Source: Daphnia carinata (taxonomy: Eukaryota; Arthropoda; Branchiopoda; Diplostraca; Daphniidae). From it: a stretch of 64,000 bases of DNA. Of the stretch, positions 1,498 to 48,871 are shown piece by piece; positions within the stretch are counted from its first letter, which is position 1, and every line of letters starts with the position of its first letter. The notes beneath the pieces are model-generated. The model was not told where the DNA came from. It did no database searches and worked only from the letters and a program-made list of their open reading frames with translations. The stretch lies in the NCBI RefSeq assembly GCF_022539665.2, contig NC_081340.1, positions 1,612,001 to 1,676,000 of the forward strand, read 5' to 3'. The position numbers and the translations under genes were made by a program.

Positions 1498-1793
1498 CAC
1501 GACTAGCAATCGCTTAAACAGCGTTAGTTTCTCCCCAACCATCAAAGCAGACACACATCGAAGTTGTGTGTCTACCTTCTTGCTTTTTTGATTGATTTCG
1601 GACGTTTGCAATCAAAACACCCCCGGCCACAAGTTGATTCGTTCCATCTCCGAACATTTTCATTGCCATTCGAAATCGCCTTCGGAACACAAGAAAAGGA
1701 TCAAATCAACGAAGTGTGTACTTTGCGTTCAGTTAAAAAAACAAAAAAAAAAAAAACAAAAGACCATCGACGGAGTTAGAGATCCTAGTCGTC

Positions 1794-3169
1794 ATGAGTA
1801 GCTTGACGGAACAACACACGACCGGACCATCGGTGATCACGACGGGCAACAAGTCGAGAGTTTACACGATCGACGACATTCTCGGCCGTCGTTCCTCCAA
1901 CGTCGAGCCCATCGTTCCCGCCAAGCGTATTGGTATGACACTTTAAATTATACAACGCGGGACGATTCATTTCCCGGAACAGTTTTTTTAAATGTTGCTT
2001 ACAATTTAGATCATTAAGTTTAATTGAATTTATTTATTTTTTTTAACAGAGCAACAAGTCAATTCGTCGAAATCGAGCGATGATGATGAATCTCTGGTTA
2101 TGGACGAAGAAGAAGAGGACGCCATCTATCCCTCAAAGGTAAATAATAATCATCAAAGATAATCGAGTCAACCTTGCCAACAGTAATTACTGATGGCCTT
2201 GTATATAAAGACCCAACGTATTACGTGTGACCGTCCCCCCCCCCCCCCCGGAGATCAGACATTAGTCAACTATCTCATTAACTTGCAAAAAAAAAAGAAT
2301 TACAGTATCTTTTATTAATTACTATTATTTCTTAAATCTAAATTTTTAGTTGAGAGACGGATCGCTGGACGAGATCGACTTGTCCGTGTCATCGGCGGAG
2401 AAACCGGGCGGCCGTAAAGTGCGTCGGACGCGGACGACATTCACGACGTTCCAGCTGCACCAACTGGAACGCGCCTTCGAGAAGACGCAGTACCCAGACG
2501 TCTTTACCCGCGAAGAGCTGGCCATGCGTTTAGATCTCAGCGAAGCTCGCGTTCAGGTAATAAAAACAAATGCAAATTTTCTATTTTCCTTTGGATTGGG
2601 GGCTTGTCTTATGCAATTTGATTACAAAGTGTGTGCCACTTGATCGACTTAAAACGGCGAGAGATGCACGTCGAAGTACGCAAAACGGATCATCATCCGA
2701 AATATCCCCATGTACATTGCCATGATAATTCGAAGCGTGTAATGTCATGCAAATGTTTCGCTCTTATTACCAACGATATGGATATCCGTAGAATTTCAAG
2801 TTGCGCCCTGTAGGGGTGTGTGCAGCCCTATTATATACATGGCGATTATCGTCATCGACCTGAAACATATACAGACGAGTCGTATGTATCGCCGGGTGTG
2901 GGAATCAAACGACATCGGGACGGGGGGTTAGGGAGAGGTTGATCTACTCCCAACTTAGGGGGAGTCCATATTTTTGTGTGAATCATTTAACGTAAGAGTA
3001 CTATGTACTTTTACGCACGACGTTAACAGTCGATATGGAGGAGGGGAGGGAAGGGGGGGGGAGTGAGGACATGTTAGAGTGGAGGGGATTATCATCGGTT
3101 CACGGATGGATAGATGTTGAATAGTGACTCGATATCAATTAGCACCCAATTGCTTTTTATATGCGCATA

Positions 3170-3205
<36 letters not shown>

Positions 3206-4890
3206 CCATCCCCCCCCCCTCCCCTGCCAGCCTTCCGTTTTTTACCAGGTTTAGTTTCTCGAGTGGAACAAGGGGGGAGAGGATGGGATGATATGCTGAT
3301 GACTGGGCCGCTGCAAAATAAGAATGGCAAGAGAGCTCGCCACTTTAGTGACAAAAGGTTTTTGGGGAGACGACAGGGATTAAAGCAATAGCCAAAAAAT
3401 CCAAGAAAAAAAAAAAAGAAGTAGCTCTTTTGAATCTTTAATCATTTTTTTTTTATCATTCGATGTTGGAGTTCCAGTTTGTTTGATTGTTCTTGTTCTC
3501 AAGAAAAAAAAAAAAGAAAAGAGAGAATGAAAGCGGTTTGTAAAGAGATGCACAATCCCCTAACTCAGGCAGCTAGTTAGTGCTCTATATATGTACCGAG
3601 TCTCTTTCAAAGCCGTTGACAATCGACTGATTAGCCTAAAATAGTGGGTGGAGTATATATGCAAAGAAGAAAAAAAGAAAAGAAAAATGAAGGCTTGAGA
3701 ATCTTTATTTTTTTGGGAATGAGGTTGGCAAAAATGGAAGCGCCCGAAGGATTGTTTACCGGCCGATGATGAGCGGCAAATTAGCCGCCATTATTCTATA
3801 ATGTATAGCCAAATGTCGTACGTCTCTTTCCGCCGAAAACGTGACATCAAACTTTGTTCAAGTATTTAAAATCCGCCTTGAAAGAAACATCAAAGGGATC
3901 TTTTGAAAAAACTTGTCTGATCATTCTTTCATTTGCCATGTCGCGCCCTAAGCGGCCCGCACTTCTGTCTATTTTTTAAAGTGAATTAGACAAAGTTTTA
4001 AGTTTTAATTTGATTTCAAATTAATTAAGTTCATTTTTTTTTTTGTTTTAAATATCAAGGTTTGGTTCCAAAACCGACGGGCCAAGTGGCGCAAGAAGGA
4101 AAAGACCATCGGCGCCGAATCGCCAACTTTCAGCGCATCTCATTTACTCGATCGCCTATCCAGTAAGTTTGAAGCATTTCACATTACACATGATGAAACA
4201 GATTATATTAAAATCTTTCTTCTTTTTGAATGAATAGGCTTGGCTGATGGAGATTTGCAACACGCTGGAACACGCTCCAATCAGCACGACGTGTGGAATC
4301 AAGTTGGGCATCAACAGCCACAACAGCCATCGCATCCTTCCCTCAATCCATTCCTGGCCATGCGCTTGCCTCACGGCAATTTATTCCCATACGCCGGACA
4401 TCCGACCTACGCGGCCCATCCGGCCGCTCTCGCCGCCCATCACGCAGCGGCCGCGGCAGCCTGGAACAATTTGAAGCAGAACGGCAGTCCCGTGGCGGCT
4501 GCGGCCGCTGCCGCCGCCGCTGGATTCCAACCGCGTTACTGGCTCCATCCGCATTGGCCAGCCCACGCCGGTGTCTTCGATCCGATCGGTTTGACAGCCC
4601 ACCCGGAAGCTAGTTCCTCTCCGCCCCAACAATCCGATTACACGTCGTTCATGCTGCAGTCTCAACAGCAGTTTCAAAACCCCCATCACCACCATCATCT
4701 TCAGCTTCATCAACACACATCGCCAGACTGCCGATCGTCGGTGAACAGCAGCCCGACATCATCCGTGCAAGGCGGAGATTCACCCACTCCGGAAATGGAG
4801 AACGGAAGCGACAAGATGGCCAACAGCGTCGATAAAACCATTTTGGATTTGCGAGTGAAGATCGCCGGAGCTAAAGACGCGTCTCCGTAG
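1794..4890 (+). CDS. hbn: Paired-like homeodomain transcription factor, homeobrain-like
   Basis: Nuclear DNA-binding regulator; in insects homeobrain acts in anterior brain development (family knowledge). Five coding exons join in frame: 1794-1932, 2050-2138, 2350-2556, 4060-4162 and 4238-4890, giving 396 residues. An eh1-like octapeptide YTIDDILG lies at residues 24-31, followed by an acidic stretch (DEEEED). The homeodomain covers about residues 99-158, with helix 3 [14 protein letters not shown] and Gln at homeodomain position 50. The third intron splits it between positions 46 and 47, a common site in paired-class genes. The C-terminal half is rich in His, Ala and Gln (poly-Ala near 4495-4525, His run near 4685) and ends in a weak OAR-like segment, [12 protein letters not shown]. 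The [20 protein letters not shown] helix-1 region fits homeobrain better than aristaless or Rx, but naming rests on recall. The start is the first ATG after the TATA box and is in frame with the octapeptide. Confidence 0.8.
2557..4059 (+). other. Large third intron of the homeobox gene
   Basis: This 1.5 kb intron interrupts the homeodomain. It holds a (TC)n microsatellite at about 3171-3200, several poly-C/poly-G and poly-A runs, and no further coding signal. Nothing marks an internal gene. Confidence 0.6.
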
Positions 4891-15529: not shown

Positions 15530-15649
15530 ATAAGCCCATTCTATAACTAGAAATGTGACCGGCAGATGGCGATAGCAATAATATAGAAAAAAGGCCAATA
15601 TTTTATGGCAATCCGTTTTACATTAAAAAAAAAAAATGGCGGAAAAAAA

Positions 15650-17381
15650 AAATCGCACTTTTTTCTCTTTTTTCTACTCGTAGCCATCTATCAGTCGGTT
15701 TCGTTATTACAGGCATGTAAGCAATTTCAGTTAATTGTATCCCATTAGCAGTTAATTGAGTAGCGTGGCTGGAGAACAACGCGTGGCTGGAGGAACAATT
15801 GAAATATGGATAAGATAATAAAACAAAAAAGTGGTAAGTATAAACATTATTATATTGGTTTTCAATTATTAATTATTGTTTATTAGATCAAATAATGAAG
15901 CTGCAGGCCCAGTTATTGGAACAACACAAAATATTAGATAACAACGAAGCTAAGGATGGTAGGCCTAATACGTAATGATTCTATTTATTTGCTTTTATTC
16001 ATTCGTGTTTTGTAGCTCAAATTTTTGAGTCTACAAGCTCAGCTAGGGGAAAAGAACAAATTGGAACAAAACAGTTTCCAAACAGTGAAGGAGGTTTTTC
16101 AAAACTCATCCCTAACTGAACGTGAGGATGAGTTGGCATTAGGTGAACAGTCAGGTGCCTAAACTTTTCAAATAAGAATTCCAAATAAGTATAGAATTTT
16201 AACAAACAATTATTTATTGTTTAGTTATTCAGTCCACCACCTGACAGTGTGTTAAATTTAAATTCTGTTAGTGCTGCACTAAAAGAATTGTTAGTAATAA
16301 GTCCATGCAGCGAAGGAACTGAAGAATTGTGGGACAGTATTTGGGCGGAAAATGGGTGTGGTATGGAAACACAGAAATGGCATGAGTTCAACATGAAACA
16401 TGGATTAGGTACTTTTTTGGTTTTTGTCTATCGAAAAAGTATTTTTAATGCTATTATTTTGCATTCACAGAATTTTAGCGGGGGTTCAAGTCAAGTCTGG
16501 AAGTGTTACAGGATGGAAGAGTGAGCCTGTAGTTGAAAAAACACTGAGAGTGCATTACCATTAAGGTGTGAGGTAAAGTAATAGAGTAATGCAAATTGTC
16601 TAATGAGAAGTACCACCTTGTGTTAATGAATCCGTTACAACAGCAATCCTTTATAGTTCTGACAGAAGAATATGCTCGCAATCAACTCACGAATCATGTA
16701 AGGTACGAACTATACATGTGAATTAAGAGTTTTTATGCTAATGGTGTTTTATTGTCTCATAGATGAACAATAAATTTTGATCTGAAAAGGTTTCTTGTTT
16801 GGGGCAAGGTCATGAATTAATTTTTACGTTTGGATACACTACATGGAAGTTCTACACTTAATTCATATTCCCCAGACGGTATTTGATATTTAAAAAATTG
16901 AAGTGCATATCTGGGCTCCCTTCTTTTCTGAAGCCCCGTTTCCCCTTGACTCATAATAAGCCCGTAGGGGGTCATGCCCCTACTGTACGGTATATATAAA
17001 AACAACATATACCGAGGTTTGGAGGGCTCTGGCCGGAAAGGGGACGTGGAGGTCCGCTTAGTCCGATGATGTGTTCACGGAGGGCGACGTGGCTACCCAC
17101 AAATCCGAACTAAAGGTTAATCGCTCCTGTAAAAATGTTCCAAATCTTCAGCTCTTCTTCCGGCTTCTCTTAGCCAATCACCGGGTAATCTCCCCGGTGG
17201 GTCAACAAGGCAGTGTCTCCCCCTGCCTGGGTTGACGGCAACTTTTGAAAGGGCTATTGTGCCTTTTTAAAGTTGCAAAAATAATTGTAATGTGCAGAGA
17301 ATTGTCAATAAATTTTTTTTTACAAAATGTTTTTTGCAAAATTTGTTTCTTTCATTGTCTGTGTTCACACACTACATTTAT
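15650..17381 (+). mobile_element. Unidentified multi-exon repeat family, copy A
   Basis: This is the left arm of a long inverted repeat with copy B. It looks like a decayed spliced gene. ATG 15806 starts a short exon (MDKIIKQKS), then GT-AG introns separate a coiled-coil exon (MKLQAQLLEQHKILD), an exon reading AQLGEKNKL in better copies, and an exon (about 16238-16408) encoding ISPCSEGTEELWDSIW and ENGCG. Frame breaks follow. The last 400 bases are GC-rich and hairpin-rich (separate entry). I do not recognise the protein. The multi-copy state and the association with other repeats suggest a transposon or an amplified gene remnant. Compared with B, this copy has a deletion near 16680-16735. 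Confidence 0.6.
16913..17260 (+). ncRNA. GC-rich chain of hairpins at the 3' end of the repeat family
   Basis: At least five hairpins follow one another: 16913-16937 (GGGCT/AGCCC), 16965-16982 (TAGGGG/CCCCTA), 16988-17014 (CGGTATAT/ATATACCG), 17179-17199 (CACCGGG/CCCGGTG, 7-nt loop) and 17201-17236 (GTCAAC plus AGGCAG arms). The same block recurs nearly unchanged at about 18240-18570 (-), 24255-24600 (+), 33055-33400 (-) and, more diverged, 41655-41910 (-). It is better conserved than the neighbouring coding-like DNA, which hints at a structural role, either as an RNA or as an element terminus. It resembles no RNA family I know. Confidence 0.45.
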
Positions 17382-17498
17382 GAGCCTTTTTTTTCTTATT
17401 TAGCTTGCTCAATGAACCTTTAATGTTAATGCCACCTTTGATGGTAAGCATTGTTTCCATTGGTTTATCGTATTTCTGTAAGCATTTAATTAATTATT

Positions 17499-17568
17499 AT
17501 CCAGGGATCGAACCCTGGATGTTCGGCATACCGCGCCGATGCTCTACCAATGAGCCATAAATCATATG
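17499..17568 (-). repeat. tRNA-like unit (A and B boxes)
   Basis: On the minus strand a GCTC...GAGC D-arm, a perfect 5-bp TCGGC/GCCGA anticodon stem and a CAGGG-TTCGATC-CCCTG T-arm are in order, including a consensus B box (GGGTTCGATCC). The acceptor stem does not pair and position 33 of the loop is not T, so this is a tRNA-derived relic or SINE head, not a working tRNA. It lies in the loop between inverted copies A and B. Confidence 0.55.
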
Positions 17569-17690
17569 AAGTTAAGTTGGCTTTTTTCTAGCCACTTGCA
17601 GACTTGCATTTACACTTTGAATAAAACCGAAATGCAATACTGCAATACTATTTTCTACATTTAGATGTAGATCTTTATACATCTACTAAG

Positions 17691-17747
17691 GGTTGAACCC
17701 ATGGTAACAGTTATCGGAGCTGAATGCTCTACCACAGAGCTATGGAC
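17691..17747 (-). repeat. tRNA-like unit (A and B boxes)
   Basis: The minus strand reads TAGCTCTGTGGTAGAGC (A-box/D-arm) and, about 30 nt later, GGGTTCAACCC (B box). The anticodon arm is not well formed. It is a second tRNA-derived relic in the A/B loop. Confidence 0.5.
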
Positions 17748-17845
17748 CTTATGAAAAAAATAGAAAGATCAACATATAGTTGTGATAGACTGCATAAACA
17801 TCCTAGACGATAACATATGATATGCGATAATAAAAAATTTAGATA

Positions 17846-17915
17846 TATCTCGTGGCTCAATGTTAAAGCATCGGCGTTGCACGCTGAATGACTGGGGATC
17901 GATTCCCATCCCAGT
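17846..17915 (+). repeat. tRNA-like unit, anticodon loop reads TGC
   Basis: TGGCTCAATGTTAAAGCA is followed by a TCGGC/GCTGA stem with a canonical-looking loop GTTGCAC (T33, TGC in the anticodon position), then a degraded B box (GGGATCGATTCCC). Acceptor pairing is poor, so a functional alanine tRNA is unlikely. This is the third relic in the A/B loop. Confidence 0.45.
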
Positions 17916-18088
17916 AAAACAATATACAAATACAAAATTACTTCAGAAAATATCCAGGTATTACACGTTGTTCCTTGTCTAAGTCCAAGAATTCAAAAAG
18001 TGTAATAAATAACAATTGAATACCTACAGATAAACGATACAACGGTGGCAAAAACAAGAAAGATAGATTGAATAATAAAAAAAAGCTG

Positions 18089-19935
18089 ATAAATGTAGTG
18101 TGTGAACACAGACAATGAAAGAAACAAATTTTGCAAAAAACATTTTGTAAAAAAAAATTTATTGACAATTCTCTGCACATTACAATTATTTTTTGCAACT
18201 TTAAAAAGGCACAATAGCCCTTTCAAAAGTTGCCGTCAACCCAGGCAGGGGGAGACACTGCCTTGTTGACCCACCGGGGAGATTACCCGGTGATTGGCTA
18301 AGAGAAGCCGGAAGAAGAGCTGAAGATTTGGAACATTTTTACAGGAGCGATTAACCTTTAGTTCGGATTTGTGGGTAGCCACGTCGCCCTCCGTGAACAC
18401 ATCATCGGACTAAGCGGACCTCCACGTCCCCTTTCCGGCCAGAGCCCTCCAAACCTCGGTATATGTTGTTTTTATATATACCGTACAGTAGGGGCATGAC
18501 CCCCTACGGGCTTATTATGAGTCAAGGGGAAACGGGGCTTCAGAAAAGAAGGGAGCCCAGATATGCACTTCAATTTTTTAAATATCAAATACCGTCTGGG
18601 GAATATGAATTAAGTGTAGAACTTCCATGTCATGTATCCAATCAAAAATTAATTCATGACCTTTTTCCCCAAACAAGAAAAAGAAAAACCTTTTCAGATC
18701 AAAATTTATTGTTCATCTATGATACAATAAAACACCATTAGCATAAAAAATCCTCTTAATTTTTTTTGGTTGATTAGACACATTTAAAATCATTTGAAGA
18801 AAAATCCTTTCATACCTAAAGAGTCCATGTATGATGTTCATCTTGCAATGATTAAAACATCCTTAGGGCCATTTAAGTGAGTTGATCTTTAGACAGAGAA
18901 GCAGAATTATTCTTCTCTGTCAGAACTATAAAGGATTGCTGTTGTATTGGATTCATTAACACAAGGTGGTACTTCTCATTAGACAATTTGCATTACTCTA
19001 TTAATTTACCTCACACCTTAATGGTAATGCACTCTCAGTGTTTTTTCAACTACAGGCTCACTCTTCCATCCTGTAACACTTCCAGACTTGACTTGAACCC
19101 CCGCTAAAATTCTGTGAATGCAAAATAATAGCATTAAAAATACTTTTTCGATAGACAAAAACCAAAAAAGTACCTAATCCATGTTTCATGTTGAACTCAT
19201 GCCATTTCTGTGTTTCCATACCACACCCATTTTCCGCCCAAATACTGTCCCACAATTCTTCAGTTCCTTCGCTGCATGGACTTATTACTAACAATTCTTT
19301 TAGTGCAGCACTAACAGAATTTAAATTTAACACACTGTCAGGTGGTGGACTGAATAACTAAACAATAAATAATTATTTGTTAAAATTCTATACTTATTTG
19401 GAATTCTTATTTGAAAAGTTTAGGCACCTGACTGTGTTCACCTAATGCCAACTCATCCTCACGTTCAGTTAGGGATGAGTTTTGAAAAACCTCCTTCACT
19501 GTTTGGAAACTGTTTTGTTCCAATTTGTTCTTTTCCCCTAGCTGAGCTTGTAGACTCAAAAATTTGAGCTACAAAACACGAATGAATAAAAGCAAATAAA
19601 TAGAATCATTACGTATTAGGCCTACCATCCTTAGCTTCGTTGTTATCTAATATTTTGTGTTGTTCCAATAACTGGGCCTGCAGCTTCATTATTTGATCTA
19701 ATAAACAATAATTAATAATTGAAAACCAATATAATAATGTTTATACTTACCACTTTTTTGTTTTATTATCTTATCCATTTTTCAATTGCTCCTCCAGCCA
19801 CGCAGTTTTCTCCAGCCACGCTGCTCAATTAAATGCAAATGGCATACAATTAACTGAAATTGCGTACATACTTGTAATAACGAAACCGACGGGAAGATGG
19901 CTACGGGTGGAAAAAAAAAAAAAATCGGACTTTTT
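18089..19935 (-). mobile_element. Unidentified multi-exon repeat family, copy B
   Basis: This is the inverted counterpart of copy A. A 91-codon frame at 19058-19333 (-) has the same translation as 16249-16524 (+) in A. Its 5' exon (MDKIIKQKS), GT-AG introns and coiled-coil exon are all recognisable. At its high-coordinate end it meets copy C head to head, through a short palindrome around 19915-19945 containing GTAGCCATCT in both orientations. Confidence 0.6.
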
Positions 19936-20106
19936 TCTTTTTTTCCGACACGTAGCCATCTACCGCTCAGAATCGTTATTACTGGCGTAGGCAATTTCAG
20001 TCCATTGGATGCCATTCGCAGTTAGTTCAGTAGCGTGGATGGAGAATAACGCGTGAATGGAGGAACAAATGAAAAATGGATAAGATAATACAACAAAAGG
20101 ATGGTA
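19936..20106 (+). mobile_element. Repeat family copy C, 5' end (split by the hAT-like element)
   Basis: The sequence matches the 5' end of copy A, including an ATGGATAAGATAATA start, and stops at GGATGGTA. The same 8 bases reappear at 22801-22808, where the copy continues with GTAAGTATAAAC, the first intron. The copy was therefore interrupted by the insertion. Confidence 0.7.
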
Positions 20107-20316
20107 TAGTGTTGGCGATTATCTAAGTTCTGCTAGATAAAAATTATCTACGCCCCTTTTAGATAACGATACGATTATCGATAAAATATCTAATAACCCC
20201 CATCTACCGGCCAAAAATAGCACTGCAGAAATGATAGGGATTAGTTTATCAGGTTTGTATCGATAATTCTAAACAATAACCTTATGCGACAACCATCGTC
20301 TTCAATAACAAATGTC

Positions 20317-20376
20317 ACAGCGCTGTGGTTATAGTCAGCGCATGTGGCCCAATGGTTCCGAGTTCAACGCTAGGTA
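20317..20376 (+). repeat. tRNA-like unit 1 of the hAT-borne array
   Basis: AGCGCTGTGGTTATAG (A-box-like) is followed about 30 nt later by GAGTTCAACGC (degraded B box). A TATCGATA palindrome lies 52 bp upstream at 20258-20265. Confidence 0.45.
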
Positions 20377-20534
20377 CGGATGTATGTTTTTATCGATTTT
20401 TTTGGTTGCAAATAATGTGTTTTATGCTTTGAAAAGCAAGCAGACGAATGAAATATTAGATTTCCGTTGTCGATTTGTATCGATACTATTCGACAACAAT
20501 GCATTTGGATTATGATTCGAATTTTATGAAGTGT

Positions 20535-20597
20535 GCTGGCGCAGAGCTATAAGGCGAGGTTCATGACACAAAATCCTTAGGTTCAAGCCCAATCGAC
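20535..20597 (+). repeat. tRNA-like unit 2 of the hAT-borne array
   Basis: TGGCGCAGAGCTATAAG (A-box-like) and GGTTCAAGCCC (B box) are correctly spaced. TATCGATA lies upstream at 20478-20485, after a GCAGACGA-type stem arm. Confidence 0.45.
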
Positions 20598-20885
20598 GAA
20601 TTTTACACAATTTTTGGTTTTGTGAGAAAAATTGCATATATGTTTCTACAAGAAGGTTTTTTAGCAGCGGTAGCATTTGTCCTTTCTTAAAATATTTATA
20701 ATATTATATTACGAAACTTAAAGCACTGATAAATTTATGGCAACACCCCCTAACATTGAAAAATTTCACTGCGCAGCTTCGTAAAATTGAGCAGACGACG
20801 ATAAAATTAGATATTCGTCTGCAATTTGTATCGATACTATCCCACACCAATACCACCTTGCTGGTTACAAATTTTCCAAGAACGT

Positions 20886-20947
20886 CATGGCTATGTGGAA
20901 GAAGATGTGGCTCAGGACATAAAGGTAAGGAGTTCAACCCTCAAAGG
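20886..20947 (+). repeat. tRNA-like unit 3 of the hAT-borne array
   Basis: TGGCTATGTGGAAGAAG (A-box-like) and GGAGTTCAACCCTC (B box) are present. Upstream are a GCAGACGA/TCGTCTGC hairpin (about 20800-20823) and TATCGATA at 20829-20836. Confidence 0.45.
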
Positions 20948-21243
20948 AGACATAGTTTTTAACTATTTTTAATTATTGCAAAAATATGTTGTAGATGGTT
21001 ATTAACGGGAATTCACAAATATTTTGCATTACAGTCCTATATAAATATTGTGCCGTTAATAAAAGTAAATTTGCTGTATAAGAATACTATTAATTTGCGG
21101 TGGCAACCCTGATATCAATAGTAAACAAATCTTCAATCTAAATCGTTGCAGACGACAGTAATGTTAGATTTTCGTCTGCAATTTGTATCGATACTACCCG
21201 ATAACAATTAATTCTTTTGAATTTGTCCATTATGCAATATCGA

Positions 21244-21303
21244 AGTGGTCCAGCGGTTTAAGATACAGCGCGCCACAAAATAGAACCGTGTTCGATCCCA
21301 GCA
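21244..21303 (+). repeat. tRNA-like unit 4 of the hAT-borne array
   Basis: GTGGTCCAGCGGTTTAAGA (A-box-like) is followed by GTGTTCGATCCCA (near-consensus B box). Upstream lie a perfect GCAGACGA/TCGTCTGC hairpin (about 21150-21180) and TATCGATA at 21186-21193. Confidence 0.5.
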
Positions 21304-21503
21304 TATGGCATTTTTTATTGGATACCTTACATTTCTGGAAAATACTTATTTGACAGAACTAAAATGTTATAAAGCATAGCATTTAATTGCCATAAAACAT
21401 AAGACACAGAATTTAGAAGATCATGGTAGCAGTTGTATTTTCTTCTATACGCAACACATAAACAAAGGAACACAAATAATTAAATAATTATAATAAATAA
21501 ATA

Positions 21504-21570
21504 AGTGTATCGTTGTGGTTAAAGCGCAAGCTTCGTGATGTAAAGTATCGGAGTTCGAATCCTCATTTGG
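21504..21570 (+). repeat. tRNA-like unit 5 of the hAT-borne array
   Basis: TATCGTTGTGGTTAAAGC (A-box-like) and GGAGTTCGAATCCTC (consensus B box) are present. This unit lacks its own upstream GTATCGATAC palindrome, which explains the 622-bp gap between palindromes at 21186 and 21808. Confidence 0.5.
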
Positions 21571-21862
21571 GAATTTTGCTTTCTTGAAAGAGTATTGCAA
21601 TGTATTTTTTAAGCGCTATTTTACGCACTCCGTAATTTCACAATCAAAATTTTTTATTAATTGCATAGTGGGACATTAAGAATTCAAAGAAATCAAAATG
21701 TAAATGAGAGAAGAAACCTGAAAATATTTGTTTTCATTGCCTTTGCAACATACTGTTTAGCCCTACGTAAAACAGACGACGAATTTCGATGTGTAGTCTG
21801 CAATTTGTATCGATACTCGTTAACACTATTATTATGTATTGCTTTGCTATCATATGTCATGA

Positions 21863-21926
21863 GGGAGTAGCGCTGTGGATAAGTACTGCGATTGGGATTC
21901 GGAATTCTCGAGTTCAAATCTGCTTA
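21863..21926 (+). repeat. tRNA-like unit 6 of the hAT-borne array
   Basis: TAGCGCTGTGGATAAGT (A-box-like) and CGAGTTCAAATCTGC (B-box-like) are present. TATCGATA lies upstream at 21808-21815, after CAGACGACG and TAGTCTGC arms. Confidence 0.45.
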
Positions 21927-22213
21927 GGGGTTTAGGTCTAGTTATCTATTTTTTTTTACAATCTGCTAGACATTATATTTTAAACGTATCTGAGTAATAA
22001 AAATTTAGGATAATCGCTCTCTGTTAACTGAGGCGTTTACGATACTAATAAAATAAGATTTGTAATTTATAAATGTAACAGATTTTCATAGCAAAATAGT
22101 ATTCTGTTTAGCATCGTTGATAAAGCAGATGACGGTAAGTAACAGTTGCTTCTGAAATTAGTATCGATACTCGGCACCAAACGTTGGACTTATTGCCTGA
22201 CACACAAATTGTG

Positions 22214-22280
22214 GAGAGTTAGCGTTGTGGATCAATTCCGCGCTCGCAATACGTAGTACAGACGTTCGAATCCGTCTGCA
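22214..22280 (+). repeat. tRNA-like unit 7 of the hAT-borne array
   Basis: TTAGCGTTGTGGATCAA (A-box-like) and GACGTTCGAATCCGTC (B box inside a fully paired T-arm) are present. TATCGATA lies upstream at 22162-22169. Confidence 0.5.
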
Positions 22281-22557
22281 AGACTTTTTTTAAAATTTGA
22301 AATACATATTTTTATATCCTGACGATAAATACATTTGTGCAATGGTAAATTATTATTTTCTCTACATTTTATGTTCATGTAATACAAATTTCAACAAAAA
22401 TCTATTATATTTCATAAGGCAACACTGATATGTATGACTAAAATTATCTGTTAAGACTTGTAAAGTAAAGCAGACGATAAAAATATTGAATTTCATGACA
22501 TTTGTATCGATACTCGCCAACAAAAACCATACTTGTGCCATGTCGTTTTTTTCTTAC

Positions 22558-22622
22558 TGGTTTAGCGGTGTGGGTTAAGTCGGCGCTCGTAACACGAAGC
22601 GCTGGAGTTCAAATCTAGGCAG
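22558..22622 (+). repeat. tRNA-like unit 8 of the hAT-borne array
   Basis: TTTAGCGGTGTGGGTTAAGT (A-box-like) and GGAGTTCAAATCTAGG (B-box-like) are present. TATCGATA lies upstream at 22505-22512, and another follows at 22706-22713 near the element's right end. Confidence 0.45.
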
Positions 22623-22800
22623 AGGTGACAACTTTAATATTATTATATTTTTTTTCATTTGCACTAGACGCCATCTATTGTTAAATGGGAGATCTATTTG
22701 GAATGTATCGATACAGCGATTATCTAAAAAAGTCGACTATCTAAAAACTATCTAAAAATATCGATATATCGTTTTGAGGTTTAGATAGTCGCCAACACTA

Positions 22801-24645
22801 GGATGGTAAGTATAAACATTATTATATTGGTTTTCAATTATTAATTATTGTTTATTAGATCAAATTATGAAGCTGCAGGCCCAATTATTGGAACAACACA
22901 AAATATTAGATAACAGCAAATCTAAGGATGGTAAGGCCTAATACGTAATGATAAATTTTTATTTATATTTATTTGCTTTTATTCATTTGTGTTTTGTAGC
23001 TCAAATTTTGAGTGTACAAGCTCAGCTAGGGGAAAAGAACAAATTGGAGTGGAACAGTTTCCAAACAGTGAAGGAGGTTTTTCCAAACTCATCCCTAACT
23101 GAACATGAGGATGAATTGGCATTAGGCGAACACAGTCAGGTACCTAAACTTTTCAAATAAGAATTCAAAATAAGTATAGAATTTTAAAAAACAATTATTT
23201 ATTGTTTAGTTATTAGTTTACCACCTGACAGTGTGTTAAAGTTAAATTCTGTTAGTGCTGCACTAAAAGAATGGTTAGTAATAAGTCCATGCAGCGAAGG
23301 AATTGAACAATTGTGGGACCGTATTTGGGCTGAAAATGGGTGTGGTACGGAAACCCAGAAATAGCACGAGTTCAACATAAAACATGAATTAGGTACTTTT
23401 CGGTTTTTTGTCTATCGAAACAGTATTTTTAATGCTATTATTTTGCATTCACAGAATTCTAGTGGGGGATCAAGTCAAGTCTAGAAGTGTTACAGGATGG
23501 AAGAGTGAGCCTACAGTTGAAAAACACTGAAAGTGCATTACCATTAAGGTATGAGGTAAAGTAATAGAGTATGCAAATTGTCTAATGAGAAGTACCATCT
23601 TGTGTGAATGAATCCTGTGTAACAGCAATCCTTTATAGTTCTGTTATAGCTAGAAGCCTCAAATAATTCTGCTTCTCTTGCTAAAGAACAACTTGTCCTT
23701 TACATTCAGAGTGTTGGTGAAGCTGGGTACTTAAATGGCCCTAAAGATGTTTCACTTCACTGGCATTGCAGCGATGAACATCATACATGGACTCTTTAGG
23801 TATGAAAGGATTTTTCTTCAAATAATTTTGAATTTATGACGAAGAATTTCGCCTCCTTTTTGCCAACCACGTCTTATCTACCAAAAAAAATTTTATCCAA
23901 TAGGAAAGGATTTTCATGTACTGGGAACACAACTATCAACAATGCAACATTCTACAGGTGCTAGTTTATCATTCAAGAGCCTTATACAATGAAGTTAATC
24001 TGCAATTTGTATGTCCTTTCCCAAGCTTCCACCAGAAGTTGAATCTATGAGTCATGTAAGTTCCATGATCAACAATTGATGTGTTTAACGGTGTTGTTTT
24101 TCTTTTCTCAATATAGGTTAATAGTAACATTGGATCTGAAAAGATTCTTAGTTGGGGCAAGACACTGAATAAATTGTATTGATTGGATGGATGACATGAC
24201 ATTGCTATACTTAATTCGGATTCCCCAGACGGTATTTGATATTAAAAAAATTGAAGTGCATATCTGGGCTCCCTTCTTTTCTGAAGCCCCGTTTCCCCTT
24301 GACTCATAATAAGCCCGTAGGGGGGTCATGCCCCTACTGTACGGTATATATAAAAACAACATATACCGAGGTTTGGAGTGCTCTGGCCGGAAAGGGGACG
24401 TGGGGTGCCGCTTCGTCCGATGATGTGTTCACGGAGGGTGACATGGCTGCCCACAAATCCGAACTAAAGGTTAATCGCTCCTGTAAAAATGTTCCAAATC
24501 TTCAGCTCTTCTTCCGGCTTCTCTTAGCCAATCACCGGGTAATCTCCCCGGTGGGTCAACAAGGCAGTGTCTCCCCCTGCCTGGGTTGACGGCAACTTTT
24601 GAAAGGGCTATTGTGCCTTTTTAAAGTTGCAAAAATAATTGTAGC
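22801..24645 (+). mobile_element. Repeat family copy C, remainder
   Basis: The copy continues after the hAT-like insertion. Its coiled-coil exon (MKLQAQLLEQHKILD) and an exon with AQLGEKNKLEWNSFQTVKEV are open here (22948-23160), which helps correct copy A. A later stretch reads SNNSASLAKEQLVL and GPKDVSLHWHCSDEHH, then breaks. The hairpin-rich GC block closes the copy (about 24255-24600). Several in-frame stops mark it as decayed. Confidence 0.6.
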
Positions 24646-36534: not shown

Positions 36535-37125
36535 TGAGATGACGGCGATGGAGGCAGCGATGGAGACGGCGATGGCGATGGCGAAGACGGCGATGGCGAT
36601 GGCGAAGACGGCGATGGCGATGGCGAAGACGGCGATGGAGACGGCGATGGCGAAGACGGCGATGGAGACGGCGATGGCGAAGACGGCGATGGAGACGGCG
36701 ATGGCGAAGACGACGATGGAGACGGCGATGGCGAAGACGGCGATGGAGACGGCGATGGCGAAGACGGCGATGGAGACGGCGATGGCGAAGACGGCGATGG
36801 AGACGGCGATGGCGAAGACGGCGATGGAGACGGCGATGGCGAAGACGGCGATGGAGACGGCGATGGCGAAGACGGCGATGGAGACGGCGATGGCGAAGAC
36901 GGCGATGGAGACGGCGATGGCGATGGCGAAGACGGCGATGGAGACGGCGATGGCGATGGCGAAGACGGCGATGGCGATGGCGAAGACGGCGATGGCGATG
37001 GCGATGGCGAAGACGTCGATGGCGATGGCGATGGCGAAGACGGCGATGGCGATGGCGATGGCGAAGACGGCGATGGCGATGGCGATGGCGAAGACGGCGA
37101 TGGAGACGGCGATGGCGATGAGGCG
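36535..37125 (-). repeat. 27-bp GATGGCGAAGACGG minisatellite
   Basis: The 27-bp unit (GACGGCGATGGAGACGGCGA plus TGGCGAA) is repeated about 10 times in near-perfect register in the centre. It is flanked by shorter GATGGC variants. Because units are multiples of 3 without stops, frames of about 270-280 codons are open on both strands (Ala-Met-Lys-Thr, Ser-Pro or Asp-Gly repeats). None has a credible gene structure. Confidence 0.8.
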
Positions 37126-38846
37126 ACTATCCGGATTTTCTTTTTATTGACCCTATGTAAATGTAACAGATGTAAAGGAATTAAATAAAAGAACAACATA
37201 CGAATTTAATAAAAGAGATATAAGTATATTAATGGTTCACCGGGACTATAAAAATGATACAGGTTAAATAACGAAAACTAGCTCGATTAGTTTCCCAGGA
37301 TTACTGGGTCCATAATATGAACAGACTGAAGACAGGGAATGTTACTTCTGTAAAATAGTTTTTCATTCAAAAGAAATCCTTTGCTAAATGGTTATCAAAC
37401 ATTCCATATGTTCAATCTTCTTCAAAAAGAGCTTGTCACAAACAGTTGTCATAAAGCTTTGTTAGTTGAACGTAGATTCAAGAAGTTCAAACAAACAAAT
37501 ATTTAGTACAACAGAAGTCACGATATTGAATACAAACTTGAAAAAGTTTAATAAACCATTTAGTATATATAATTATGATACAGATGAAAAAGGCTGATAA
37601 GTTGAATGCTGATAGCTCAGCTAGTGTGCTCATTATTGAAACATTAAGCCAATCCTTTAACCTCTACTCACAATTCTATGTAAGAGACTCACTGCTAAAT
37701 AATACCCAACAATTTGCCAACAATATTTCTATTATGCTCTGAAGAAGAGCTTAAAGATATTTTACGCTACAAAAATCATACGGCTGATTTTCCAAAGCAC
37801 CAGCTGGGCATCGACTTCCTTACCATCTGCGTTCAACTTATCATTGCTGGTTTACATAAAACGCTTCCATCTTCCTAATTCTAACAATAAAGCAAAATAA
37901 TAATGCCTGAATAAAAATAATGATCGTATGTTACTTACTCGTTGATGTAGACGCACAAAACAGGAGGAAAACTAAAAAATACAACAGGGCAAAAATGTTT
38001 ATATGGTGACATGGCTAATAGCGGACATGACAGACGACGGTGGCGTTCAGTCTTTCGGGTTTTAATGCGAAGCAACCGAGATTTTAAATCTTCATACGAT
38101 AAGCATTCTCGAATTTTAAATATACCCCCCAGTGATTGATTAGATTTTTAATTCAAGGTTCCTTACTGTTTGTATGCAAATTCCGAAGTGTATCGGAATT
38201 AACGAAGAATTTCTGAACTACTAATTACACAACGAAACGAATCAGAGATGTATAATACCCATAAAATCGCAGAACGCAACTTTCAAGCGAGTATATTCGT
38301 ATGTTACGAGCAATGGAAAGCCGGACAAAATTGACATAGGAAAAAAAATTAACAGAATGTGTTGCACATTCAACATACGACTTTTATAGTAATGAGACAT
38401 TAGGGCGCTATTAGTATTACACAATTTCCCGTAGCGTGCCAGTACGCTACAGCGTAACGTAAAATAAGAAAAGGTCGGGCTTATTTCTAAACCTGACTGT
38501 AGATCAGATGGCCGTGCATGATAAGGTTATAATAATAGCACGAGGTATATCTTCATCTATACTTATCAGGTATACCTTCCCATTAGTGTGATACATAAAG
38601 CTAGTAGTCTCTGTTAACGAAGTAGTGTTATAAGTATATGCAACTCGCGCGATCAACCAATAATGAAATAGCAAAACAAACGCGAAAAAAGCCGCCAACC
38701 CATTTCATTTATGATCAAAATGCTTAAAATGTTTGGAATATTAATGTTCATTTTTTACTTTTTTGCCAAGTTGAAAAAAAATTACCGGAAGTGATCGGAA
38801 GTAGCCTATATCTCCAGAAATAGTAGGCCCACAACAAAACGAATAT

Positions 38847-48197: not shown

Positions 48198-48871
48198 AGG
48201 GCAATCTCTGGGAGTCACCGTGGACCGCGGGACATCGAGGATCGGCGACACCAAAAACAGGTATCAGTGATAAATCAAAGTGTACTAACTGTGTTTTTTT
48301 GTCTTTTATGTATCTAGATTGGCCGGCCAAAGGACCGAAAAGGCCCATCGTGGATCGTCGTTGGAGCTACAACATCGCCGTGGGATCGTCGCCATAAAAG
48401 GTATCAGTGATAAATCAAAGTGTACTAACTGTGTTTTTTTGTCTTTTATGTATCTAGATTGGCTGGCCAAAGGACCGAAAAGACCCAACGAGGATCGTCG
48501 TGGGAGCTACAAGATCGCCGTGGGATCGTCGCCATAAAAGGTATCAGTGATAAATCAAAGTGTACTAACTGTGTTTTTTTGTCTTTTATGTATCTAGATT
48601 GGCCGGCCAAGGGACCGAAAAGGCTCATCGTGGATCGTCGTGGGAGCTACAAGATCGCCGTGGGATCGTCGCCATAAAAGGTATCAGTGATAAATCAAAG
48701 TGTACTAACTGTGTTTTTTTGTCTTTTATGTATCTAGATTGGCCGGCCAAAGGACCGAAAAGGCCCAACGAAGATCGTCGTGGGAGCTACAAGATCGCCG
48801 TGGGAGCTACAAGGTCGCCGCCTCGAGAACCAGAGATTCATGCCCATTTGGATTACGAAGAAAAGAAGATG
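48198..48871 (+). repeat. 140-bp tandem array of alternating exon-like and intron-like segments
   Basis: Four 57-nt segments (48261-48317, 48401-48457, 48541-48597, 48681-48737) begin GTATCAGTG, contain the ideal branch point TACTAAC and a T-rich tract, and end TATCTAG. They separate 83-nt exon-like segments (48318-48400, 48458-48540, 48598-48680) and a longer last one (48738-48871, ending GATG before GTACGG). The four intron-like copies are identical as read, while exon-like copies differ at several positions. An 83-nt exon shifts frame each time and one frame ends CCATAA, so the spliced product cannot be a continuous protein. Confidence 0.7.

Follow-up and report, generated by a model that had tools for sequence, protein, structure and literature searches.

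A hAT-type element of Daphnia carinata carries an ordered array of tRNA-like units and constrained TATCGATA palindromes

We examined a 64,000-nucleotide stretch of the Daphnia carinata genome (contig NC_081340.1, positions 1,612,001 to 1,676,000; hereafter the window), in which positions 20107-22800 form a complete hAT-type element of 2,694 bp holding an array of tRNA-like units and repeated copies of the 8-bp palindrome TATCGATA. The element opens with a 20-bp terminal inverted repeat on the + strand (TAGTGTTGGCGATTATCTAA, 20107-20126) and closes with its partner on the - strand (22781-22800), the two being complementary at 19 of 20 positions, and it is bracketed by an exact 8-bp target-site duplication, GGATGGTA, at 20099-20106 and 22801-22808. 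Inside the left end lies a subterminal stretch (20127-20218, + strand) with TATCTA/TAGATA words and one TATCGATA at 20176 that has no unit directly after it. The right subterminal stretch (22657-22780, + strand) holds TATCTAAAAA repeats and TATCGATA at 22706 and 22759, and TATCTA/TAGATA words are present near both ends. A Pfam search for the hAT dimerisation domain (PF05699) gave no match in the element. The near-perfect inverted ends, exact duplication, subterminal repeats and missing transposase that an initial annotation, made from the letters alone, had described are therefore all confirmed. The element is itself nested within a large inverted-repeat element.

An array of tRNA-like units within the element

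TATCGATA occurs ten times in the element, against a mean of 0.08 and a maximum of 1 in 500 dinucleotide shuffles, and 12 times across the whole window, where 0.98 would be expected. The excess over chance claimed in the initial annotation is thus real, as are the nine positions it listed; its count fell short by one, the site at 20176 having been overlooked. Also as first described, eight tRNA-like units with A and B boxes are present, all on the + strand. Seven of them contain TATCGATA: unit 1 (20219-20410, with TATCGATA at 20258 and the B box at 20362), unit 2 (20439-20622; 20478 and 20581), unit 3 (20790-20980; 20829 and 20932), unit 4 (21148-21339; 21186 and 21290), unit 6 (21773-21957; 21808 and 21912), unit 7 (22124-22314; 22162 and 22264) and unit 8 (22469-22656; 22505 and 22607), where TATCGATA is followed by a right-end-like stretch, ACTCGCCAACA. 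Unit 5 (21507-21586, B box at 21553) has the A and B boxes only, and three of the ten TATCGATA sites (20176, 22706 and 22759) have no tRNA-like unit. Distances from site to site along the array are 220, 351, 357, 622, 354 and 343 bp; the long gap is thus 622 bp and not the supposed doubling of about 350 bp.

The units of the window copy are 41-61% identical among themselves, and their likeness is unevenly distributed. Between unit classes, identity is 94% in the core TTTGTATCGATACT, 69% in the B box, 57% in the A box and 36% in the spacer; shuffled columns were as alike as observed in 0 of 20000 trials for the core and in 303 of 20000 for the B box. Right-end-like sites (AGATAGTCGCCAACAC, at least 11 of 16 positions matching) number five on the + strand, four of them directly after TATCGATA, and one on the - strand, whereas 150 shuffles gave a mean of 0.47 and a maximum of 2 on the + strand. 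The likeness is best in unit 8 (13 of 16) and is partly accounted for by the GATA common to units and end; it suggests that the units are relatives of the transposon end. Two further features had been ascribed to every unit, a GCAGACGA/TCGTCTGC hairpin and the stretch GGCAAC.CTGATA, and neither is general. The hairpin belongs to units 3 and 4: TCGTCTGC lies at two places in the element (20815 and 21172), the CAGAYGA arm alone in six of eight units, and a hairpin conserved among units was rejected because only two of the seven stretches folded (units 3 and 4) exceeded all 200 shuffles. GGCAACNCTGATA, likewise, is found at two places only (21102 and 22418).

All eight units have the sequence features of a type 2 RNA polymerase III promoter, namely an A box, a B box at tRNA spacing and a T-run. 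B boxes of the form GTTCRANNC occur eight times on the + strand and not at all on the - strand, against a shuffle mean of 0.28 and a maximum of 3 (n=500). Setting the A box at the best match 37-50 bp ahead of the B box, we found an A-box-like stretch in 8 of 8 units, with a full match in five and six of seven letters in three. It lies 44 bp before GTTC in six units and 45 and 49 bp before it in the others, and a spacing of 44-49 bp is close to that of tRNAs. A run of four T (T4) falls within 39 bases after the B box in every unit and between the boxes in none; random 39-base windows gave T-runs in 8 of 8 in 1 of 3000 draws, and when the frame was slid the best fit lay at 0 to +10 bases. Pooling units from all copies described below (124 found, 110 retained after removal of those with long gaps, and not independent of one another), T4 lies between the boxes in 0 of 110 and after them in 105 of 110, where A4 gives 13 and 20. 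The tRNA cloverleaf fold itself is gone: neither the window element nor seven other copies matched the Rfam tRNA model (RF00005) at E<=1, and 22 of 40 T-stem pairs are kept across units. We therefore rejected functional tRNA genes as a description of the units.

TATCGATA and the B box stand at a fixed distance. In the seven units having both, TATCGATA lies 104, 103, 103, 104, 104, 102 and 102 bp from GTTC, and over all copies the distance is 102-104 bp in 73 of 87 cases, held constant although the spacer is so little conserved between units. The palindrome precedes the A-box-like stretch by 58-60 bp in six units and by 53 bp in unit 8. Insertions and deletions between TATCGATA and the B box are mildly fewer (6.7 vs 9.5 per kb); the difference being mild, we dropped slower loss of spacing among copies as a line of evidence.

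Family copies and their transposase

A DNA search of the 108-Mb assembly (106 contigs) with the element gave 80 matching pieces (best 40 of 61 candidates scored); allowing up to three mismatches, we found the 20-bp end 67 times and its reversed control 5 times. We analysed 24 copies, the window copy and 23 fetched from among those found. Both ends are present in 14, and the 8-bp duplication is exact in eight of these, inexact in L040 (7 of 8) and L043 (6 of 8), and lacking in L031, L035, L041 and L051. The initial annotation had asked whether other copies lack the array. All fetched copies carry it, with a unit order common to copies, and the array is thus native to the element. The number of units per end-to-end copy runs from 2 (L051) through 4 (L038 and L048), 6 and 7 up to 8 (window and L043); one L034 unit, split in two, is counted twice in our unit listing. 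The commonest short form is without element positions ~1090-1667, and its junction falls in matching blocks of units 4 and 6, an outcome expected of exchange between in-register repeats. Every one of the 124 unit pieces found in the copies has a window unit to which it is at least 70% identical, yet the window units resemble one another far less; the array is accordingly older than the copies. A diverged relative, L081, with 69% DNA identity over the unit region, has two exact TATCGATA 340 bp apart and keeps A-box-like stretches, with the exact B box absent.

In L038 (C8:1075876-1082207, positions 1501-4832), a short complete copy at 1730-3088 with the duplication GGTTAGAG seems inserted in an older relative of ~79% identity, whose matches stop at element position 229 and resume at 245. 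L051 and L052 were considered as autonomous copies and rejected, since the genes nested between or beside their end matches are pogo/Tigger-like (a name given from the reading frames) and differ from the family transposase. In L052 (C3:11751985-11756775), tandem 17-bp copies of the hAT end stand to either side of the pogo/Tigger-like gene, and its two flanks mirror one another.

Larger relatives carry a transposase gene, reading leftwards, at a place that corresponds to 21484-21500 in the window, where it is absent. Specifically, several copies have matches that break off at element position 1378 or start again at 1394, next to sequence of a hAT transposase, and three PF05699 hits lie 8-39 bp past matches ending at 1378 (C9:9519650, C9:9729598 and C7:11125017). 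L043, a full-length relative with 4,940 bp between its ends, holds, with units 1-4 on one side and units 5-8 on the other, a broken leftward transposase that was identified through translated similarity to L054. At ~2904 of this copy, between the transposase and unit 5, an extra tRNA-like B box lies on the opposite strand. Pieces of the broken L054 gene match zf-BED (PF02892, E 4.5e-5) and Dimer_Tnp_hAT (PF05699, E 1.2e-7), and L053 matches PF05699 at E 1.6e-6; among solved structures, human ZBED1 came closest to the L054 BED piece, though weakly (E 0.07). Five of the six transposase matches nearest in sequence fall in copies that have family ends or units, and the sixth (L081) lies beside units. 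No intact, active autonomous copy was seen among them: the top match is the 175-aa query piece, and stops interrupt the remaining five. The exact duplications and the hAT dimerisation and BED matches in broken relatives support the earlier proposal that a hAT transposase moved the array. Since units flank a broken transposase, and the closest transposase matches sit in or beside family copies, the array was part of a transposase-bearing design and the window copy is a deletion derivative. It is thus a non-autonomous copy, shortened by internal deletion, in a hAT family whose transposase has a BED finger.

Beyond D. carinata, a Daphnia magna relative of the transposase is 60% identical over 64% of the piece searched. 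Viral contigs matched neither the D. magna homologue nor the units, and a PDB search with the catalytic piece of the transposase returned nothing useful. The homologues P0001 and P0002 gave Pfam matches below the cut-offs, and the PF27041 tag on them was not reproduced.

Constraint among copies

We measured substitutions over the 23 other copies with the window copy as reference. The ends change at 0.8% and TATCGATA at 1.4%, compared with 4.7% for the fixed letters of the B box, 6.5% for those of the A box and 9.2% elsewhere, and none of 384 rotations of the annotation gave a rate as low as that of TATCGATA. Because the copies share history, this rotation test is the better guide and Fisher values are indicative only. 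TATCGATA is thus strongly conserved between genomic copies, a check that the initial annotation had set, and its end-like rate is what would be expected of a subterminal repeat bound by a BED transposase. The sites at 22706 and 22759 change at 1.5% and 0.7%, their flanks at 4.4% and 3.2%. CG letters change at 8.9% outside TATCGATA sites and at 2.8% inside them. Constraint on the A and B boxes is only weak across the copies present today.

Interpretation of the array

The family resembles Hermes and the hAT superfamily in its 8-bp duplications, short inverted ends and repeated words within the ends and, in family relatives, in a BED finger and a hAT dimerisation domain; Ac and Tol2 are further hAT members with BED-finger transposases and subterminal repeats. 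It differs from Hermes in that its subterminal sites extend over 1-2 kb, arranged in ~350-bp units that each hold a polymerase III-type promoter. In the excerpted text of PMC10368747, short subterminal repeats are the targets of Hermes BED domains, two of them making up a quasi-palindrome that is bound cooperatively, and the sites are AAGT-like words concentrated toward the tips. Excerpts of PMC8097297 report that the motifs of four hAT-encoded proteins match their own subterminal regions and, together with those of PMC3606216, that BED-finger host regulators arose from hAT transposons several times. DREF binds TATCGATA through a BED finger, and its human homologue ZBED1 has a C-terminal dimerisation (hATC) domain, according to the available part of PMC6179265. 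The Daphnia family thus shares with DREF/ZBED1 and the DRE (DNA replication-related element) an identical 8-bp palindrome and a BED finger; unlike the DRE, TATCGATA here belongs to a transposon whose ends are only slightly more constrained than the word itself. Internal tandem repeats are known in MITEs (miniature inverted-repeat transposable elements) and foldback elements, such as DINE-TR1 and Tetris of Drosophila. These too have tandem units in a non-autonomous element, with a copy number that shifts in register, whereas the Daphnia units carry a polymerase III-type promoter and a probable transposase site, and do so also in the full-length relative.

The best explanation, which in our judgement has about an even chance of being right, is a hAT family in which TATCGATA serves as a transposase-bound subterminal repeat and each complete unit adds a tRNA-like polymerase III module. 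The long subterminal regions would then be an array of ~350-bp units flanking the transposase gene in the full-length relative. The first module would be the palindrome, two TATC half-sites in a terminal-repeat-like context. By analogy with Hermes, the other hAT-encoded proteins and DREF, we infer that TATCGATA is the BED site of the family transposase. The array would multiply such sites and thereby allow each end to take up many transposase subunits. The second module, comprising the A box, B box and T-run with the B box 102-104 bp downstream of TATCGATA, may have bound TFIIIC and probably gave short RNAs while the family was active. It might keep the ends open, or let upstream-bound transposase compete with the polymerase III start complex. 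TFIIIB is expected approximately where the fixed distance puts TATCGATA, from which we speculate that transposase bound there and polymerase III either compete or work together. Because the geometry was kept while the units diverged and the boxes are now nearly free to change, the tRNA-like parts were probably polymerase III modules useful to the once active element, more than to its recent spread.

Several observations weigh against this explanation. Rotations gave rates as low as observed in 168 of 384 cases for the A box and 125 of 384 for the B box, so that neither is significantly constrained, and comparison among units shows no excess of likeness in the A box over shuffled columns (3711 of 20000 as high). 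T4 is also absent between the boxes in 789 of 3000 composition shuffles, and we therefore count that absence as no more than support, having rejected it as strong evidence. The TATCGATA at 20176 is no more constrained than its surroundings (2.3% vs 1.7%); with flanks that change so little, the site is uninformative. L050, which has a broken transposase, carries five TATCGATA and zero exact B boxes, and L046 three and one, so the polymerase III part seems dispensable for recent spread. Transposase binding alone does not predict the fixed 102-104-bp distance. On the protein side, a piece of the L043 transposase region had no Pfam match, and the L054 BED piece, as read from its alignment, seems to have lost one zinc ligand. 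In L065, a transposase relative of 40% identity, a 5-kb stretch holds a single TATCGATA and three B-box words at scattered places, and this relative informed little on subterminal sites.

Some of these points would suit an alternative that we regard as possible, with rather little probability: the hAT family and the transposase role of TATCGATA are the same, and the tRNA-like parts are functionless passengers, tRNA or tRNA-derived sequence caught in an ancestral subterminal repeat and multiplied by unequal exchange. The weak constraint on the boxes among present copies, the lost fold (T-stem pairs and Rfam searches alike) and the varying unit number are all consistent with passengers. Yet units that are only 41-61% identical all retain a B box and a downstream T-run, a set of T-runs that random draws reached once in 3000, and the seven TATCGATA-bearing units retain the distance from palindrome to B box.

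tRNA genes and extra TFIIIC (ETC) sites act as boundaries, and the clustered B boxes of the array are like them in this respect. The element could be a mobile boundary, as the initial annotation had proposed: chromatin would be insulated by DREF/BEAF-type proteins of the host at TATCGATA, together with TFIIIC at the B boxes, and a hAT transposase would move the array. The palindrome is the DREF word (PMC6179265, available part), its spacing from the B box is fixed, and both modules are old in the family, L081 keeping TATCGATA and A-box-like stretches, with no exact B box. We nevertheless hold a boundary to be unlikely. TATCGATA changes little more than the terminal repeats even at the two right-end sites without a B box, copies that retain TATCGATA have few exact B boxes or none, and no result here requires a boundary, a transposase site being the simpler reading of the palindrome.

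The fixed distance from TATCGATA to the B box, which holds in 7 of 7 units, and its place ahead of the A-box-like stretch would also fit an upstream element of host polymerase III genes that arrived with the tRNA. We looked for TATCGATA, allowing one mismatch, upstream of host tRNA genes and found it at 0 of the 12 with covered upstream sequence, a narrow sample in which 8 of 12 look like one tRNA type (15 were fetched, and L074-L076 were excluded for having too little upstream). On this result, and as three of the ten element sites have no tRNA-like unit and unit 5 has its boxes without TATCGATA, this source was rejected as very improbable. The host tRNA search, in which 63 of 10,460 candidates were scored, also met regular tandem tRNA arrays at C2:247413-266766, C1:8861140-8878400 and C6:4931301-4955748, with periods of ~1.1 and 1.9 kb.

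A pile-up of short interspersed elements (SINEs), inserted one after another into a hAT element, would account for tRNA-like heads all in one orientation, and the units share with tRNA-derived SINEs an A box, a B box, a T-run and no remaining tRNA fold; we rejected it as scarcely credible because the unit cores are not dispersed and the units are carried in a fixed order common to copies inside a cut-and-paste element. Matches to this element contain 57 of the 60 listed exact occurrences of the unit core AATTTGTATCGATACT. Of the rest, one is next to the transposase in L081, and two lie less than 2 kb from a 3-mismatch end match at C3:6460604.

Other repeats in the window include a large palindromic, foldback-like element (15643-19941) whose core (17393-18077) has apparently three tRNA-like units, one of them over the Rfam tRNA cut-off at 33.5 bits. 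A search with this core gave 442 candidate loci, of which the best 40 were scored, and the long matches are 89-100% identical. Between L062 and L063 (~1500-2180), the core with the tRNA-like trio is oppositely oriented between similar arms, as if flipping within the palindrome. Long tandem repeats lie at 36557-37126 (periods 27/81 bp) and 48251-48805 (period 140 bp).

The units place polymerase III-type promoters in a fixed geometry within the ends of a cut-and-paste element, an arrangement of which we found no description in the titles and opening abstract lines of the open-access papers searched, a body of text that leaves most subscription papers and Repbase outside its scope. A wider and rather doubtful extension is that a crustacean hAT family uses the DREF site TATCGATA as a docking repeat coupled at a fixed distance to polymerase III modules, that transposase occupancy switches the adjacent polymerase III units, and that a BED-hAT transposase, together with its subterminal repeats, gave rise to DREF and the arthropod DRE promoter network, this family being closely related to that source. 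With the DREF word nearly as constrained as the transposon ends, the origin of a transcription-factor site becomes testable, and transposase and DREF could be assayed on one DNA.

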